From: Candidatus Kuenenia stuttgartensis
GTDB lineage: Bacteria > Planctomycetota > Planctomycetia > Planctomycetales > Planctomycetaceae
Reading direction: 5' to 3'
NCBI GenBank assembly: GCA_945861865.1
Contig: CAMAWN010000035.1
Location: forward strand, 1 to 38,115
Length of the DNA stretch: 38,115 nucleotides
How positions within the stretch are numbered: position 1 is the stretch's first letter; each line of letters begins with the position of its first letter. The position numbers and the translations under genes were made by a program. The notes under the pieces were generated by a model that saw nothing but the letters and a program-made list of their open reading frames with translations, made no database searches and was not told the origin of the DNA. This document shows positions 5,574-31,674 of the stretch, piece by piece.

Positions 5574-6629
5574 TCATTGCGCTGCGGACCGGCTGCCGTT
5601 GGGAGAACCCATGATGGGTGTCCCTTCGGGCAGAGGTCGAGCGGCGACGGTGAAGCCTTCGCGATGAGCGAGGGCCTGAAGTTTGCGGAACAAAACGAAG
5701 CTGTCGGGATAGACCCAAAACGTGATCGTGCTACCTGGCTCGGCTTTCCGGAGTTCGTTGCGGAATGCGGAATCGGGACGTAACGCGACGTCGCTGCGTT
5801 CTCCTGCGAGGTCGGCTTCGGGCAGGAGTTCAAACTGCGACACGCTGGCTCGGACCATGCCGAGTTGCTGCTGTGTCTCGATGACGTAGTTGAGATTCCA
5901 GCCGCGCACAGGCCCCACGGAGCCGGAGTACTTTTTCAGTCGCAAGATGACATCTCGCTGCCGATCGATTTGGCCTTTCATGCGTTCGACCAATTCTTCG
6001 ATCGGCACGACCGTGACGGCACCGCCCTGACAGCGAAAGTGCAATTCGTTTTCGTTCTCGCTGATGACTCGGCTGACCGGTGTGATGCGGTGTTCCAGTT
6101 TTTCGACTCGATTCGGCTGCTTCTCGGCGGCAACGACTTCCGCTTGCCGCTTCTTCAGTCGCACACGCACGGCGTGAAGAGCGGCCTCCAAGAGTTCCGA
6201 TTCCTGTTGGTTGTCGCGCAACGCCGCGAATTCACCTTCGAGGTTCGAGGTCAGCGCGGTGAAACGATTCTTCTGCACGGCGTCTTGCGATTGCAGTTCC
6301 GTTAGTTGAGTTGCGTCGGCCTTGGCCGCTTGGCACAGTCGGTCGAGTTCTTGCTGCAACGAATCGGACTGCGATTGCAGCGCGGCGAGTTCGTGTTGGC
6401 GAGCCGCCTTGGCCTCTTCGTCTACGGGCGCTGCGATGACGACCGGCGGAGGTGTTTTGACGGGTGTCGTTTCCGGAATCTCTTCGGCGAGATTGACCGG
6501 CGCGGTCTTGGCTCGGATACCGGCGAGGACCATCAAGATGATCAGAATGCCGACGACATTGGCGACGACGTCGAGGAACGAGTCGGAGCCGAATTCCATT
6601 TCTTCGCGCGGTTTCTTGCGGCGGCTCAT
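5574..6629 (-). CDS. TolR/ExbD-like single-TM stator partner (351 aa)
   Basis: The protein has a short basic N terminus, then one TM helix at about 18-38 with an aspartate at its entry (D20, in DSFLDVVANVVGILIILMVL). This is the arrangement of the proton-carrying aspartate of ExbD/TolR. Residues of about 60-200 are coiled coil rich in Q, E and A. The C-terminal third is folded, including a GSTITFWVYPDSFVLFRKLQ segment resembling the periplasmic ExbD/TolR beta-alpha unit. It is much longer than ExbD (about 140 aa). Its ATG overlaps the stop codon of the preceding gene (ATGA at 6626-6629) and has GGAGG 7 nt upstream. This implies translational coupling and a fixed ratio of the two TolR-like subunits. 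Confidence 0.8.
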   Translation of the reverse strand: MSRRKKPREEMEFGSDSFLDVVANVVGILIILMVLAGIRAKTAPVNLAEEIPETTPVKTPPPVVIAAPVDEEAKAARQHELAALQSQSDSLQQELDRLCQAAKADATQLTELQSQDAVQKNRFTALTSNLEGEFAALRDNQQESELLEAALHAVRVRLKKRQAEVVAAEKQPNRVEKLEHRITPVSRVISENENELHFRCQGGAVTVVPIEELVERMKGQIDRQRDVILRLKKYSGSVGPVRGWNLNYVIETQQQLGMVRASVSQFELLPEADLAGERSDVALRPDSAFRNELRKAEPGSTITFWVYPDSFVLFRKLQALAHREGFTVAARPLPEGTPIMGSPNGSRSAAQ

Positions 6630-8650
6630 CGCACACCTCCGCCGCCCGGAATTGTCGCGCGAGAGCGGGAAGTCTCGCGCGACGGCTTGGCTGCATCGGG
6701 ATCGGAATCGAGGTACTCGACGTTGGATACGAGGCCGAGATCGAACAGTGCGGAGTTCAATCGCTGATGAACCTGCTCGCCACCAGGGACGACTTCGTAC
6801 TTGATCGTCGGCACCCAGTGATAGCCTTCACTGGCATTCGGCCAGTCGGATTGCGCACGGTCCATCGCGATCAAAACGCGGTCGACCAGACTTTGCGTCT
6901 TCACGCCCGCTTCGACAGGAATTTCAAATTGGCCAGCAACCATTACTCGTCGAGACGAGATGCGGATCGTGATTGCCTTTTCGAGTCCGATGCCCGAACG
7001 AGGCATCAAGTATCGCCGCTTCATGCGTGCGAGGTTGCCGCTGCTCGCGGAGCCGTTCGTCGAGTTGTTCGCGGCGCGAGGATCGTTGCTCGGTCGTGAG
7101 TTGGGCTGCGACGCGCTGGGCTTGTTCGCAGGTGCTCCGGGAACTCCGTCCTTCGAGGATGCGGCCTTCGTGCGCTCGCCGCTGAATGGAAATGGTTTTG
7201 AATCGTCGTTCTCGTAGCGTCGAGCGTTCGGCTGCGGCAGTTGTTCTTCCGGCGGTTTGTCACCAGATTGGGAGCGACCAGTTTGTGCGACTTGTTTCCC
7301 ATCCGTGCGTCGTTGGCTAGCGGGGGGCGTCAACCCACCGGTGCGTGGACCGCCGTCAGACTCAGGTGCTACTGCTGACCCAACGCCTGGCGATCGCTGA
7401 TTCGACGGAGGCCCAGACACAGCTCGCCCGTTCGGTAGAGACGGTGCCGCTGCTCCGCCGGATTGCGATGCACCGGCTGGCCCGTTGGTTGTGGATGACT
7501 TGGACGACGCGCCGGCTTTCGGACGATTGAATCCCGTCGGTGAATCGCTGGTCTCCTTCGGGACAAAGGTTTGAGCGGTCAGATCGAGTTGCAGTTGCTC
7601 TCGTTGCTGGTCGCGCTGGCGAGCCAGTGCCAGCATCAGCTTGTCACGCTCGCCCAAAACTTGTGTGACTGCGGCTTGGCAGATTCGCTTGGCTTCGGGA
7701 TCGGGGCTGGACGAGTCGATCTCCATGTCGTCCGTGATGAGTTCGTAACCGTGCGGCACCTTGAGCTGTGTCAAAAGACTTTTCGCGATGTGAAACGCGA
7801 GGGCTCCGTTTGGCCGGATCAGCAACAGCACATACGGCTCGCGCTCTTTGTCGTTGAGCGCGGCCAAGTCGGTCTCGAAGGAGTCGGCATCTTTGGTCGG
7901 ATCGGCGTCCGCCGAGTGAACTCGTTCGTAGGCTTTCCAGTAGTGGAACAGTTCACGCGACGCCATCAGCAGCGGGTTGAAGCCGGTCGTGAATCCATTC
8001 AGATCGGCGGGCGACAACCGGACGTCTTCGGGCAGGAAGCGAATGCAGTCCTGAGTGCATTCGATGAGGATTGGCCGTTTGGTCGTCCCGGTGCGGCCGT
8101 CGAACGGCATAAACGCGAACTTGCTTTTCGCAGTCTGCTGCCGCTCCACGGCTTTCGCGAGTCGCAATTCAGCGTCCGACAGGTCGCTTTGCAGCGAGTC
8201 GATCTCCGTCTGCAATCGCTGTCGTTCGGAGGCCGCCTCTGCTTGCTGGGTGTGGATGGCCTTGAGCCGATCCTCAGTCGAGGCGGCTTTGACTTTGGTG
8301 CGCATCACGGCCGACTCAGCCGTTGCCAACCGGTTCTTCATCTGCGAAAGCTGGTTCCGCAGAGCGTCCCGCTCTTCGGTCAGTTGCTCGACTCGTGTCT
8401 GCCATTCGGGGGTGGGATCGGCTTCCGGCTCCGGTGCGAGGACGATTGGATCGGGTGCCGCAACGGGAGGCTCCTCGGATTTCAGCCGTTGCTGCATCGC
8501 GGCTTGTTTTGCCTTGTCGACGGCGGCGGCTCGGATGCGACTGGTCGCGACCAACAGCAATAAGATCAGCGACCCCATCGTGCAGACCAGCACGTCGAGA
8601 AACGGAAACAGCGACATCTTGCCGGTGTCGGCTCTGCGTCGGCGACTCAT
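6626..8650 (-). CDS. large TolR/ExbD-like single-TM protein with disordered linker (674 aa)
   Basis: The ATG at 8650 is chosen because GGAG lies 5 nt upstream and the protein then opens like its partner: a basic MSRRRR start and a TM helix at about 15-36 with an aspartate at its start (D19 in FPFLDVLVCTMGSLILLLL). A coiled coil follows (about 85-180). A folded domain of about 190-350 contains YVLLLIRPNGALAFHIAKSLL, resembling the ExbD/TolR periplasmic unit. A long Ser/Pro/Gly/Asn-rich disordered region runs from about 390 to 560. The last 110 residues are a separate folded domain (ITIRISSRRVMVAGQFEIPV). Longer upstream starts give an unlikely basic extension. It is the first substantial gene of the operon and is coupled to the next gene by an ATGA overlap. 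Confidence 0.8.
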   Translation of the reverse strand: MSRRRRADTGKMSLFPFLDVLVCTMGSLILLLLVATSRIRAAAVDKAKQAAMQQRLKSEEPPVAAPDPIVLAPEPEADPTPEWQTRVEQLTEERDALRNQLSQMKNRLATAESAVMRTKVKAASTEDRLKAIHTQQAEAASERQRLQTEIDSLQSDLSDAELRLAKAVERQQTAKSKFAFMPFDGRTGTTKRPILIECTQDCIRFLPEDVRLSPADLNGFTTGFNPLLMASRELFHYWKAYERVHSADADPTKDADSFETDLAALNDKEREPYVLLLIRPNGALAFHIAKSLLTQLKVPHGYELITDDMEIDSSSPDPEAKRICQAAVTQVLGERDKLMLALARQRDQQREQLQLDLTAQTFVPKETSDSPTGFNRPKAGASSKSSTTNGPAGASQSGGAAAPSLPNGRAVSGPPSNQRSPGVGSAVAPESDGGPRTGGLTPPASQRRTDGKQVAQTGRSQSGDKPPEEQLPQPNARRYENDDSKPFPFSGERTKAASSKDGVPGAPANKPSASQPNSRPSNDPRAANNSTNGSASSGNLARMKRRYLMPRSGIGLEKAITIRISSRRVMVAGQFEIPVEAGVKTQSLVDRVLIAMDRAQSDWPNASEGYHWVPTIKYEVVPGGEQVHQRLNSALFDLGLVSNVEYLDSDPDAAKPSRETSRSRATIPGGGGVR

Positions 8651-8766
8651 GGTGCTCCGTCGAGTTGGTTGACTCGCAGGAGATCGCCCGGCTCGGACAT
8701 TTTCGCGCAACGATCGCGAAGCACGTCGTCGTGTGCCGACGACGAGGCTGTTCTCGCCTGTGCCAT
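8647..8766 (-). CDS. possible 39-aa coupled leader ORF
   Basis: The ORF starts at the ATG at 8766, preceded by AAGGGGGG. Its TGA overlaps the ATG of the 674-aa gene (ATGA at 8647-8650), the same coupling used inside the operon. The peptide has no hydrophobic segment and no recognised motif (it contains VLRDRCAKMSEPGDLLRVNQ). It could be a small real protein, a translated leader that feeds ribosomes into the operon, or chance. A longer form from 8874 is possible but has no better support. Confidence 0.3.
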   Translation of the reverse strand: MAQARTASSSAHDDVLRDRCAKMSEPGDLLRVNQLDGAP

Positions 8767-9027
8767 GATCCCCCCTTGGGCGGCCGGCAACAAATGCCGA
8801 TGCGGCGGCGCTGCCGTCGCTGTGACCGCTACGACCCATAACATCGGCGCAGATTCACATCCGGTTGAACTCAAACCGAGGCTTGTTTGGAAGTCAGTTT
8901 CCTTCGGCCGGTTCCGCCGCTGATTTCGCCAGGAAACGAACGCCGCGCGGACGCTGGCAAGAGCGTGAGGGCAGGGCTATCGTCACGCGACTGGATTACT
9001 TGGCCCAATGCCTGACTGGGAGTGCTC
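8767..9027. other. divergent intergenic region between the stator operon and the Nramp-like gene
   Basis: This gap holds the 5' control regions of two opposite transcription units: the minus-strand stator operon and the plus-strand transporter. I see no convincing sigma-70 type pair, palindromic operator or riboswitch in it. GGGAG at 9018-9022 is the ribosome binding site of the transporter. The region between 8870 and 9010 reads as non-coding. Confidence 0.5.
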
Positions 9028-15106: not shown

Positions 15107-15162
15107 AGCACGACGCGCCAGCGAGTGGTGGCCAACGAAACTACTCGCTTGCGCGTCGTGCT
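15107..15162. repeat. long imperfect hairpin, REP-like, in a convergent gap
   Basis: A 23-base arm at 15107-15129 (AGCACGACGCGCCAGCGAGT...) pairs with 15140-15162 (ACTACTCGCTTGCGCGTCGT...) with two mismatches across a 10-base loop. It lies between the converging ends of the 1379-aa gene and the DUF1501 gene. A related motif (GCACGACGCGCAAGCGAG) is, as far as I recall, common in planctomycete genomes, which favours a dispersed repeat. It could also block read-through from both sides. Confidence 0.75.
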
Positions 15163-19434: not shown

Positions 19435-22371
19435 ATGACGACGTCGATCGCACGCGAGTTTCTGGGTTGGGAGCGACCGCTGCTGGAGTCAGCGGTGGAG
19501 TGGCTCGCTCGGAAATCTGCGGGGCGCGGCGAGCTTGATCTCAGCGGCGTGATCGTGGTCACGCCGGGGCGACGGGCTGGACGACGATTGCTCGAACTGT
19601 TGGTGATGTCGGCAGAACGTGAAGGTCAACGGCTGACGCCGCCGCGGATCGAAACGCTGGGTGAGTTGCCGGAGCAGCTTTATCCATTGCAGCGACCGCT
19701 CGCGAGCGATCTGGTTCAACAACTGACTTGGGCGAAGGTGCTGCGCGAATCGAAACGGGACTTGTTGCAGAAGATCGTCCCGCGACCTTCCGCCGACGAT
19801 GACGCGTTGGCGTGGTGGGCGATGGGGACGTTGTTGTGGAAACAGCACGGCGAATTGGCGGCGGGCGGACGCGATTTTGGCGATGTGGTCAAACTCGGCC
19901 GCGAAGAGCAGGGAAGTGTCGAAGCAATTCGCTGGAAGGCGCTGCATCAAGTCCAGACGGCGTATTTGCGGACGCTCGACGGGTTGAGTTTGTGGGACAC
20001 ACAGACGGCTCGACTGGTCGCGATTGAACGTCGCGAGCCGCACACGGATCGTGATCTCGTACTCGTCGGTACGGTCGACATGAATCAAGCGACGCGGCAG
20101 ATTCTCGATCTCGTCGCGGATCGCGTGACAGCGTTGATCGCCGCGCCTCTGGATCGAGCGAATTGGTTCGACACGCACGGCTGCTTGTTACCCGAACGGT
20201 GGTGCGAAGCGCCGATCGATATCCCATCGGAGCGGATTCGCGTCTGCGAGGGACCGGCCGAACAGGCCGAGCAGGTGGCTCGTGAGTTGTCGGCTTTTGG
20301 TGCGCGATTCCGAGCCGACGAAATTGTCGTCGGGCTGGCGGACGAACGTCAGGGGCCGTTCGTCGAGCGGCAACTCGCGGCGTGTGGCGTCGCGACTCGC
20401 TGGATCGAGGGAACAAAGTTGTCGGACTCCGGCCCGTGTCGGCTGCTGCTGGCGGTGGCGGAAGTTTTGGAGCGGGGACGATTCGAGGGCTTCGCGTCGT
20501 TCGTGCGGCATCCGGACCTCAATGTGTGTCTGAGTGGGCGAGTGAATCTGGCGGCCCTCGACGAGTCCTTCTGCGAGCACCTGCCACTGCGACCGGACAC
20601 GCTGTTGGCGATTCTCGAACAGCCCAAGGCGACGCAAATGCGGCTGCGACGAAAGGGACGCAAGATCGTGGGGCAGGTTTCCAACCTGCCCGGTCGTTCA
20701 AACGCCGATGATGACGGGCACGTTGGAAACGTGCCCCACGAAGTGCTCAGCAGCGTGCGCGAGTTGCTCGCGCCGTTGCGGATCGCGGCGAGGCCGTTGA
20801 ATGAATGGGCGGAGCCGCTGCGGGCGTGGGTGTCGTCGGTCTACGGCGGTCGCGAGGTCGACAACGCGTCGCGGGAAGGTCGAGTCTTGGTCGCCGCACT
20901 CAAGGAACTTAACAAAGTCATCGACGAGCTGGCGGATGTGCCAGCGTCAGTCGCGCCATCGGTCCCTGTGGCAGATGCGATTCGCTGCGCCGTGCGACGG
21001 ATGTCCGACGAACCAGTGCCGCCGGAAGCGATGCCGGATTTGGTCGAGTTGCTCGGTTGGTTGGAGTTGCCTCTGGATGACACGCCGGCCGCGATCGTGA
21101 CGTCGTTCAATGAAGGCTTCGTGCCGACGAGTTTGAACTCCGATCTGTTCCTCCCGAACGAACTGCGACGGCGATTGGGCCTGAATGACAATGCTCGGCG
21201 ATTCGCTCGTGATGCGTATGCCGTGACGTTGTTGCAAAAGACGCGGCGTGAGGTCGTGTGGCTGGTCGGTCGTCGCGACGCCGAAGGCAGTCCGCTGATT
21301 CCCAGCCGCCTGTTGTTCGCGGTCGATCCCGACCGACTACCGGAGCGCGTCCTGCGGCTGATGGATCGGGAGGGCGAGGCTCCCGCCGAACTGCCTGTGA
21401 TTGTTGGCGACAATGACGAAACAACGGCTCGGCAGGAGCCTCGCCCTCCCGGAGACTTCGGTCTCGACGTCCCTCGTCCTGAACGAGTCGCCGAGTCGTT
21501 CGGGTTGACCGAGTTGCTGAAGCCGGCTCGCGAACTGATGCTGAGCGTGACCGCGTTCAAGTCGTATCTCGCGTGTCCGTATCGGTACTTTCTGCGGCAT
21601 GAACTGGGGTTGGGAGCGGTCAACGATCGCGCGGTCGAATTAGACGGGCTGTCGTTCGGTAACGTGTTGCACGACGTATTGCGGTTGTTCGGTGAGTCTG
21701 ACGCTCGCGACTCCGACGACGAGAACCGACTGCGACGCTGTCTGCTGGAATTGCTCGGCGATGTCGCGAACGAACGGTTCGGGCCGCAGCGTCGAGCGGC
21801 AGTCAATGTGCAACTCAAGCAGATGGAATCGCGGCTGGAGGTCTTCGCCACTTGGCAGTCGAAGTGGCGTCGCGACGGTTGGGCGATCGAGCACGTCGAG
21901 CGGTCGATCCGCCCGGAGCCGAACGGTTCGGATGCCGCGTCGTTTCAGGCGGAGGGCGTTTCCGTCTGGCTGCAAGGTCGGCTTGATCGCGTCGATCGCA
22001 ATGAATCGACCGGAGCCTGCGTGATCTTCGACTACAAGTCGGGCGACCGAGGAGACTCGCCGGAAGAGAGTCATCGGAAGAAGGGAGATTGGATCGATCT
22101 GCAACTGCCGTTGTACCGGCACTTGGCTCGCAGTCTTGCGTTGTCGGATGAGCCGTTGTTGGGCTACATCAACCTGCCGAAAGATTTGGCGGGCGTCGGC
22201 CACTCGTTGGCCGAATGGTCGCCGAACGATTTGGCGGACGCGGATGAAAAGGCTAAGCAAGTTGTACTTGGAATCGCTCGTCGTGAGTTCTGGCCACCGG
22301 CGACAACTCCGCCGGGAGTGTTCCGCGACTTCGATGACATCTGCCAAGTGGGCGTTTTTGGTGCCGAATAA
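19435..22371 (+). CDS. AddB-like PD-(D/E)XK nuclease / inactive helicase subunit
   Basis: A 978-aa protein. The ATG at 19435 is preferred although no Shine-Dalgarno is seen; the frame stays open far upstream but there runs antisense to the DUF1549 gene. The C-terminal PD-(D/E)XK nuclease domain is clear: YLACPYRYFLRHELGLGA near 712, LDGLSFGNVLHDVLRLFG, then GRLDRVDR (near 848) and IFDYKSG (near 864) with the catalytic D and D-x-K. The N-terminal two thirds resembles the degenerate helicase part of AddB/RexB (VVTPGRRAGRRLLELL). The AddB iron-sulphur cysteines are incomplete: CPYRYF is present, but only one cysteine is seen near the C terminus. AddA is not in the window. Two palindromic repeats are translated inside it (residues 412-435 and about 645-673). 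A role in double-strand break end processing is inferred. Confidence 0.82.
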   Translation: MTTSIAREFLGWERPLLESAVEWLARKSAGRGELDLSGVIVVTPGRRAGRRLLELLVMSAEREGQRLTPPRIETLGELPEQLYPLQRPLASDLVQQLTWAKVLRESKRDLLQKIVPRPSADDDALAWWAMGTLLWKQHGELAAGGRDFGDVVKLGREEQGSVEAIRWKALHQVQTAYLRTLDGLSLWDTQTARLVAIERREPHTDRDLVLVGTVDMNQATRQILDLVADRVTALIAAPLDRANWFDTHGCLLPERWCEAPIDIPSERIRVCEGPAEQAEQVARELSAFGARFRADEIVVGLADERQGPFVERQLAACGVATRWIEGTKLSDSGPCRLLLAVAEVLERGRFEGFASFVRHPDLNVCLSGRVNLAALDESFCEHLPLRPDTLLAILEQPKATQMRLRRKGRKIVGQVSNLPGRSNADDDGHVGNVPHEVLSSVRELLAPLRIAARPLNEWAEPLRAWVSSVYGGREVDNASREGRVLVAALKELNKVIDELADVPASVAPSVPVADAIRCAVRRMSDEPVPPEAMPDLVELLGWLELPLDDTPAAIVTSFNEGFVPTSLNSDLFLPNELRRRLGLNDNARRFARDAYAVTLLQKTRREVVWLVGRRDAEGSPLIPSRLLFAVDPDRLPERVLRLMDREGEAPAELPVIVGDNDETTARQEPRPPGDFGLDVPRPERVAESFGLTELLKPARELMLSVTAFKSYLACPYRYFLRHELGLGAVNDRAVELDGLSFGNVLHDVLRLFGESDARDSDDENRLRRCLLELLGDVANERFGPQRRAAVNVQLKQMESRLEVFATWQSKWRRDGWAIEHVERSIRPEPNGSDAASFQAEGVSVWLQGRLDRVDRNESTGACVIFDYKSGDRGDSPEESHRKKGDWIDLQLPLYRHLARSLALSDEPLLGYINLPKDLAGVGHSLAEWSPNDLADADEKAKQVVLGIARREFWPPATTPPGVFRDFDDICQVGVFGAE
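20668..20739. repeat. 72-bp palindromic element inserted in frame (double hairpin)
   Basis: The unit is bounded by GTGGGG and CCCCAC. It contains two perfect hairpins: GGGCAGGTT/AACCTGCCC (20671-20679 with 20683-20691) and GGGCACGTT/AACGTGCCC (20716-20724 with 20728-20736), each with a 3-nt loop. Its two ends are also related to each other as inverted copies. At 72 bp it adds exactly 24 codons, reading VGQVSNLPG... to ...DGHVGNVPH, so the host frame is kept. As I recall it, GQVSNLP is a recurrent peptide in planctomycete proteins from this repeat; I could not check copy number. Confidence 0.85.
21367..21451. repeat. 85-bp palindromic element within the AddB-like gene
   Basis: The 17-base arm CGGGAGGGCGAGGCTCC (21367-21383) is the exact reverse complement of 21435-21451, with 51 bases between. 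It is translated as REGEAPAELP to ARQEPRPPGD between the helicase-like and nuclease parts, where a flexible linker is expected. A 14-base match to the right arm (GCCTCGCCCTCCCG) recurs at 22447-22460. Confidence 0.85.
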
Positions 22372-26442: not shown

Positions 26443-26538
26443 AAAATAACCCGAAGCGTCAACGAGGGCAAACGCTTCAAGCCGCGATCATGGAGGACGT
26501 GTAGAGCGTCCGACTTCGCTGACGCTTCGGGTTATTTT
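26443..26538. repeat. 96-bp inverted-repeat element supplying a stop codon
   Basis: AAAATAACCCGAAGCGTCA (26443-26461) is the exact reverse complement of 26520-26538, with 58 bases between. The right arm covers the TAA stop (26532-26534) of the secreted 183-aa gene, so the repeat provides the last codon and stop. The GAAGCGTCAGCGAGG-type motif is, as I recall, a common planctomycete repeat. It separates mch from the upstream exported-protein genes and could form a strong transcript hairpin. Confidence 0.85.
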
Positions 26539-27866: not shown

Positions 27867-27896
27867 ACAGCCCGGCTGTTCGGAAACAGCCGGGCT
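27867..27896 (-). terminator. strong hairpin downstream of the DUF1326 gene
   Basis: CAGCCCGGCTGTT (27867-27879) pairs perfectly with AACAGCCGGGCTG (27884-27896) over a CGGA loop. On the minus strand it lies 39 bp after the DUF1326 stop codon and is followed by GTTGTGTTTG, a partial T tract. This fits an intrinsic terminator ending the DUF1326 transcript. The two secreted genes further on would then need their own promoter in 27758-27866, where I could not identify one. Confidence 0.65.
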
Positions 27897-27934
27897 GGAA
27901 TTTGGATTCTGCTGGCAGAGACGACTCAGCGGGA

Positions 27935-31573: not shown

Positions 31574-31614
31574 GGCAGGTCTCTTGAGGCAGAGTGACAA
31601 ATTTGGTGTGCGGC

Positions 31615-31660
31615 GTGTCAGCACCGCTTTCAACGGAACGATCCCAAGCGGTGCTGACAC
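31615..31660. repeat. 15-bp perfect inverted repeat between exported-protein genes
   Basis: GTGTCAGCACCGCTT (31615-31629) is the exact reverse complement of AAGCGGTGCTGACAC (31646-31660), with 16 bases between. The match continues outward imperfectly (GCGG and CCGC). It fills most of the 101-bp gap between the PPC protein gene (stop at 31675) and the cytochrome-WD40 gene (start at 31573). It could stabilise or attenuate the joint transcript, or be a dispersed repeat. There is no T tract. Confidence 0.75.
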
Positions 31661-31674
31661 ACCGCGCTTCAAAA

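Follow-up and report, generated by a model that had tools for sequence, protein, structure and literature searches.

The window, the whole 38,115-nt stretch of DNA analysed here, comes from Kuenenia, a planctomycete, and carries a gene for an AddB-like nuclease subunit in which two unrelated palindromes are translated in frame. The features of the gene are as follows.

19435..22371, + strand: AddB-like nuclease subunit of 978 aa, called from PDDEXK_1, AddB models and fold matches
20668..20739, + strand: REP-A dimer (BIME/REPIN-like) at site 1, translated as residues 412-435; called from repeat search, folding and stem pattern
20671..20691, + strand: hairpin 1 of the dimer, GGGCAGGTT-TCC-AACCTGCCC, with its outer tag GTGG at 20668-20671
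20716..20736, + strand: hairpin 2, an inverted copy, GGGCACGTT-GGA-AACGTGCCC, with its outer tag CCAC at 20736-20739
21367..21451, + strand: REP-B at site 2, unrelated to REP-A, residues 645-673 (REGEAPAEL...ARQEPRPPG), score 20, in frame

The AddB-like label originally given to the gene is backed by fold matches and by sequence models that fall short of their cut-offs. Pfam PDDEXK_1 was found at residues 703-954 (E 4.6e-28), and addB_alphas matched with E 8.1e-26, under the model cut-off; the NCBIfam AddB models match only below cut-off. Searched by fold, the AlphaFold model (mean pLDDT 83.1) has AddB chains of AddAB as its five top hits, led by 4cei_B (Foldseek E 1.7e-29) and 3u44_B, and the protein combines an AddB fold with a C-terminal PD-(D/E)XK nuclease. 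As had been expected of a tolerated insertion, the peptide at residues 412-435 lies away from the nuclease motifs of that C-terminal domain. The two longest internal segments with pLDDT below 50, residues 404-430 and 646-677, are those into which the palindromes fall, a low confidence partly expected at inserts because most aligned sequences are gapped there; in the model, both palindromes are predicted to sit in loops of the host protein.

The element at site 1 spans 72 bp, laid out as GTGGGGCAGGTTTCCAACCTGCCC, 24 bp and GGGCACGTTGGAAACGTGCCCCAC, and encodes VGQVSNLPGRSNADDDGHVGNVPH within the ORF that starts with the ATG at 19435. Both hairpins have perfect 9-bp stems and 3-nt loops, and the two halves pair with each other through 27-nt arms that are 93% complementary. 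Folded as RNA with short flanks (20660-20747, 88 nt), the element reached -56 kcal/mol (z -7.4), a stability equalled by none of 200 shuffles, while its stem pattern had two matches in the window and none in 100 shuffles of the window. The in-frame palindromic double hairpin of the original prediction is real, with stems, loops and frame as claimed. The second palindrome, absent from the original prediction, also folds very stably (21360-21458, z -8.3). Four other strong inverted repeats lie in the window, at 15107-15162, 26443-26538, 27868-27897 and 31610-31665, none with a coding signal in a single open frame on both sides. In the window about 160 bp separate the AddB-like gene from the gene that follows, as against about 1.57 kb in two orthologous loci (L027 and L030).

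REP-A as a repeat family

The genome of the window (6.24 Mb in 351 contigs, of which the window is one; 90% complete) yielded 242 matches to the REP-A stem with at most two mismatches, compared with 4 for a reversed control. The unit is repeated elsewhere in its genome, as the prediction required, and the proposed search of related genomes found the stem in multiple copies in all eight others (33-459 matches each). A chance palindrome is ruled out by these matches, by the window shuffles and by a 200-kb shuffled-DNA control in which no strong inverted repeat was found.

The anatomy of the family was read from a sample of 40 stretches of 20 kb (800 kb), picked by position only, which contained 48 REP-A stems (at most two mismatches) forming 31 elements. 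The tag GTGG was present on 41 of the 48 stems, in 2 of them on both sides; GTAG was found on none, and 7 were untagged. Dimers accounted for 21 of the 31 elements, with both tags outside in 16, one outer tag in 5 and an inner tag in none. Across this genome the family occurs both as single 27-bp hairpins and as pairs covering about 57-110 bp. High copy number, a short hairpin, a variant foot tag, inverted dimers with tags outside and mostly extragenic placement are the marks of GTAG-class REP/BIME elements; by anatomy, REP-A is a REP dimer of the BIME/REPIN type, of the GTAG class with a GTGG variant tag. Strong inverted repeats of any kind numbered 74 in the same sample, a count that skips 3 further repeats at stretch ends, and 13 of them, from 9 families, are in frame within ORFs. 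One cytochrome gene (PSCyt2/PSD1; C19, L083:15055-16586) holds three different in-frame palindromes.

A cognate RAYT for REP-A was not found in this genome, which is 90% complete and in which the only gene passing the RAYT cut-off (L033; NF047646 score 87.7 vs 80) lies beside another repeat, of the GGGTGGCACGCCCTGACC type, at L033:1037-1183 and 1873-1957. The gene and its flanking repeats form a REPtron-like arrangement of a family other than REP-A. A second tyrosine-transposase-like gene, below the RAYT cut-off, is enclosed by a 23-bp inverted repeat (L032:156-178 and 902-924). No REP-A stems occur in these two loci or in L034 (2.3-3.3 kb each).

REP-A copies inside genes

The original prediction had called for a count of in-frame against other copies. 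The 77 distinct elements examined comprise the 31 position-chosen ones, the window's own and 45 reached via pattern or BLAST matches; a simple Markov score, trained on the sample's long ORFs and placing the true frame first in 743 of 828 tests, gave their coding context. Intragenic in-frame copies recur: 28 of the 77 elements are read in frame within ORFs, flanked on either side by coding signal. Of the remainder, 37 are at gene edges, 6 have noncoding DNA to either side, and 6 stand between coding flanks that differ in frame or are separated by a stop. The match-reached copies are biased to well-kept ones, and the estimate of the genome-wide share is taken from the position-chosen elements, not from 28/77. 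Only 9 of those 31 are intragenic and in frame, compared with 61% of random points under the same rule (2375/3880), and 22 of 31 are not, compared with 39%. REP-A avoids coding DNA, and its intragenic copies are depleted.

The in-frame copies occupy 26 host ORFs, 24 of them with a Pfam domain, among which are enolase, PheT, RNase R, QueG, a P-type ATPase and planctomycete cytochromes; read from the ORFs, these 28 copies would be in-frame palindromic inserts in conserved genes, as in Rickettsia. The enolase element is located between the N- and C-terminal domains. Two cytochrome-related ORFs (L128:2237-4930 and L118:8083-12591) each hold two REP-A elements. A preference for DNA-repair genes, suggested for other REPs (PMC3733652), was not seen here: by Pfam, with 2 ORFs unmatched, the AddB-like gene is the sole plain repair gene among the 26.

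Analysis of the reading register revealed a strong bias. The 5' hairpin is read in one register, giving a VGQV-type peptide, in 26 of the 28 in-frame copies, where 43% is expected (76/175; p about 5e-8) if the other 49 copies are read in every frame without stops. All 9 position-chosen in-frame copies use this register at the 5' hairpin, and at the 3' hairpin it is used by 23 of 28. Its codons are the most host-like, and stops occur in 5 of 180 readings, as against 9 and 86 (register 2) for the other two. Lengths divisible by 3 are mildly enriched, in 22 of 28 in-frame copies vs 29 of 49 others. Selection on the protein probably underlies the bias; insertion favouring one codon phase may be an alternative source. 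We found no prior report of a register bias of intragenic REPs in the open-licence literature.

Palindromes at shared coding sites in related species

Orthologues of the AddB-like gene revealed presence and absence of the site 1 element between species. The closest orthologue (G120, L027) has 66 bp of the element, G122 (L030) has 60 bp with a decayed right hairpin, and G083 (L037) has a single hairpin of about 30 bp in a gene copy that ends at the contig end. The element is absent in G056 (L028), G121 (L029) and G123 (L031), and an unrelated stretch occupies the site in G103 (L038). All eight sequences have an open frame across site 1, the one from G083 being cut by the contig end. No insert of this type was seen by eye in 26 orthologues of other genera (L039-L064). 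The alignment thus bears out that the 24 residues are an insertion, always frame-preserving, and that they are not conserved where the DNA palindrome is lacking. The 72 bp do make up 24 codons here, as predicted, but a fixed 24-codon unit is ruled out by the varying lengths among orthologues and genome copies.

The nine-genome tree, (G103,((G083,G114),(G122,(G056,G121,G123,(own,G120))))), in which four of six inner branches are well supported, fits either one gain of the element followed by losses or repeated gains, and either may have occurred; G120-G123 were taken as close relatives from this tree and from AddB identities of 75-88%. The empty alleles of G056, G121 and G123 might be scars of right-arm deletions, as hinted by their final bases, which by eye resemble the right arm.

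The second palindrome of the gene belongs to a family of its own, with 3-155 REP-B matches in each of the nine genomes searched (11 in this genome, 155 in G122). Related REP-B copies are present at site 2 in G121, G122, G123 and the contig-end-cut G083. In G120 another palindrome, with a core that by eye recurs in the PheT gene of G122, follows a REP-B remnant, and G103 has yet another palindrome, which by eye recurs in its RNase R gene. When this genome, G121 and G122 are compared at site 2, 1-3 of 27 arm positions differ; the corresponding figures are 11-12/42 for the flank, 9-16/31 for the spacer and 30-43% for the AddB 4-fold sites. Mere tolerance would not lead one to expect arms better conserved than the spacer, as they are in these three genomes; homogenisation, recent conversion or selection may account for it. 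G123 is a counter-case, with a rearranged right arm (11-12/27 differences).

A DsbH-like gene presents a different situation. REP-A is found there in five genomes at a position where G056, G121 and G103 share a native 19-residue stretch, and a stretch similar to it is carried by five paralogues. The native and REP alleles are scattered over the tree. The substitution of up to 19 native residues, coupled with this scatter, goes beyond plain insertion and suggests, from the alleles compared, that REP-A can take the place of native sequence.

To place such sites across species, 7 of the 26 host genes were compared between this genome and up to eight other related genomes, using protein alignments because 6 of 24 loci could not be placed by matching DNA flanks. 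Counting only strong palindromes (score at least 14, which omits weak ones such as that of enolase in this genome and those at AddB site 2 in G120 and G103), 43 were found, vs 0 in codon-shuffled genes. They occupy 14 alignment positions, 10 of which are common to at least two species and 6 of which hold at least two unrelated families, families being counted as different at a position when they have no common 11-mer. Five families occur at the RNase R site and six at one hydantoinase site, all within open ORFs. The clustering was significant, with 29 family-level events at 14 positions where 24.5 were expected and 0 of 20000 simulations as clustered at a tolerance of 30 aa (0.0003 at 60 aa). 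Seven of the 14 positions, and 4 of the 6 multi-family ones, had been picked for REP-A in this genome; the other seven, including the six-family site, and the remaining 2 multi-family positions had not.

Repeat status of the families besides REP-A and REP-B rests on fewer copies. In the 800 kb of this genome, two motifs were clearly multi-copy, F with 8 matches and J with 7, against 0 in controls; motif E had 5 against a control of 2, barely above it, and the remainder had 0-5. Several of these motifs recur by eye between genes of other species. A GTCAGCCCCCCGG-type repeat of the G122 RNase R gene has a weak match in the window at 7324 (+), within a - strand ORF (6626-8839). Three unselected neighbour genes served as a control, too few to generalise: in one, two species have a repeat-like insert at a small variable site; a second shows glycine-rich length variation, and the third has nothing.

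Origin of the shared sites and relation to known elements

We consider it likely that a non-autonomous REP dimer inserted in a loop of the AddB-like protein and was retained because the frame was kept, the register was free of stops and the encoded peptide was tolerated. The same filter would act on other copies, so that REPs are rarer in coding DNA than chance and the intragenic ones nearly all lie in one register. If each protein has only few permissive loops, several families would end up sharing these loops across species, with decay or loss in some. Movement would be by a HuH (RAYT-type) transposase, and families would replace one another over time in proteins that are presumably expressed with their inserts. 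Shared positions alone are no proof of replacement in time.

A more active process, compatible with this retention in permissive loops, is possible though doubtful: new palindromes would target or overwrite old ones, their sites serving as recombination targets through single-strand transposition into hairpins or through template switching. The numbers of unrelated families at the hydantoinase and RNase R sites point this way, as do the native residues of the DsbH-like gene, which are displaced rather than split, and the sister genomes G083 and G114, whose similar spacers go with differences that include a paired stem position. In yeast coding DNA, template switching homogenises inverted-repeat arms (PMC8604942). 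Palindrome-free sites in some species (PheT, AddB site 1) are, however, what mere tolerance predicts. In its broadest form, the proposal is that of fixed docking loops in conserved proteins of this planctomycete lineage, where unrelated mobile palindromes displace each other and native residues by hairpin-directed exchange that preserves the frame, in essential genes too; we hold this tentatively, as the less probable course.

It is improbable that the hairpins are kept for a function in DNA or mRNA, such as ribosome pausing at domain boundaries or mRNA stability, with structure conserved rather than sequence. Strong palindromes do occur at one hydantoinase site in 6 of the 8 sequences that reach it, and the RNase R site has them in 8 of 9 rows (two of the rows come from G083, and the ninth is a piece that ends there), the folds at both AddB palindromes are very stable, and the site 2 arms are better kept than their flank in three genomes; but the right arm is rearranged in G123, hairpins are decayed or absent in genes that stay open (enolase here, and AddB site 1 in G122, G056, G121 and G123), and intragenic copies are depleted instead of enriched. 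Least credible, and very improbable, is a single ancient insert per site that diverged past recognition. It would suit AddB site 2, with one family in five genomes and a related spacer in four, but each of the nine genomes has REP-A and REP-B as two distinct multi-copy families, and families counted as different at a position have no common 11-mer; the multi-copy argument is weaker for the other motifs.

The original prediction had drawn a parallel to the palindromic elements of Rickettsia, the best-known case of protein-coding palindromes; the parallel holds for the way of working and fails for the anatomy, which is that of a REP dimer with a GTGG tag. According to PMC3767692, Rickettsia elements (RPEs) resemble REP-A as in-frame palindromic inserts in conserved genes, with inserts of different RPE groups at the same site of orthologues and phenylalanyl-tRNA synthetase beta among the hosts; a hot spot and a common origin are weighed there and left open, with one diverged ancient insert favoured for RPE-4, -6 and -7. 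REP-A differs in its host, which lies outside the Rickettsiales and in another phylum, and in that at least REP-A and REP-B are separate multi-copy families at the same sites. The Rickettsia elements and REP-A are set apart here by the reported tag, which PMC3733652 gives as CGTC for R. conorii.

By the account in PMC3733652, GTAG-class REPs share with REP-A the small-loop hairpin, tetranucleotide tag, tags-outside dimers, high copy number and mostly extragenic placement with some intragenic copies; one family of Opitutus terrae has GTGG as its commoner tag, REPs in frame within repair genes, recBCD among them, had been described by 2013, and one note concerns Xanthomonas recB, where unrelated families share a coding site. 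Intragenic in-frame REPs and same-site Rickettsia elements are thus known already. REP-A is distinguished from the REPs of PMC3733652 by the concentration of in-frame copies in one register, by unrelated families at the same site and by showing no repair-gene preference. The ORF fusions of MITEs (ERIC, Correia; PMC2229807) likewise join a small mobile repeat in frame to genes; terminal inverted repeats and target-site duplications are features of those elements by a table of that paper, and the comparison with REP-A is one of layout. Within the open-licence literature our searches brought up nothing on planctomycete palindromes exchanging in frame, and no report of native replacement or of clearly separate families at one coding site.

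Conserved genes outside the Rickettsiales, with separate families sharing a coding site, make the choice between a hot spot and a diverged insert directly testable, and the register bias provides a quantitative sign of inserts that are read as protein. If the pattern is general, mobile palindromes would contribute notably to how the loops of these proteins vary; if the exchange at docking loops is true, it would mean a continuing remodelling of protein loops.
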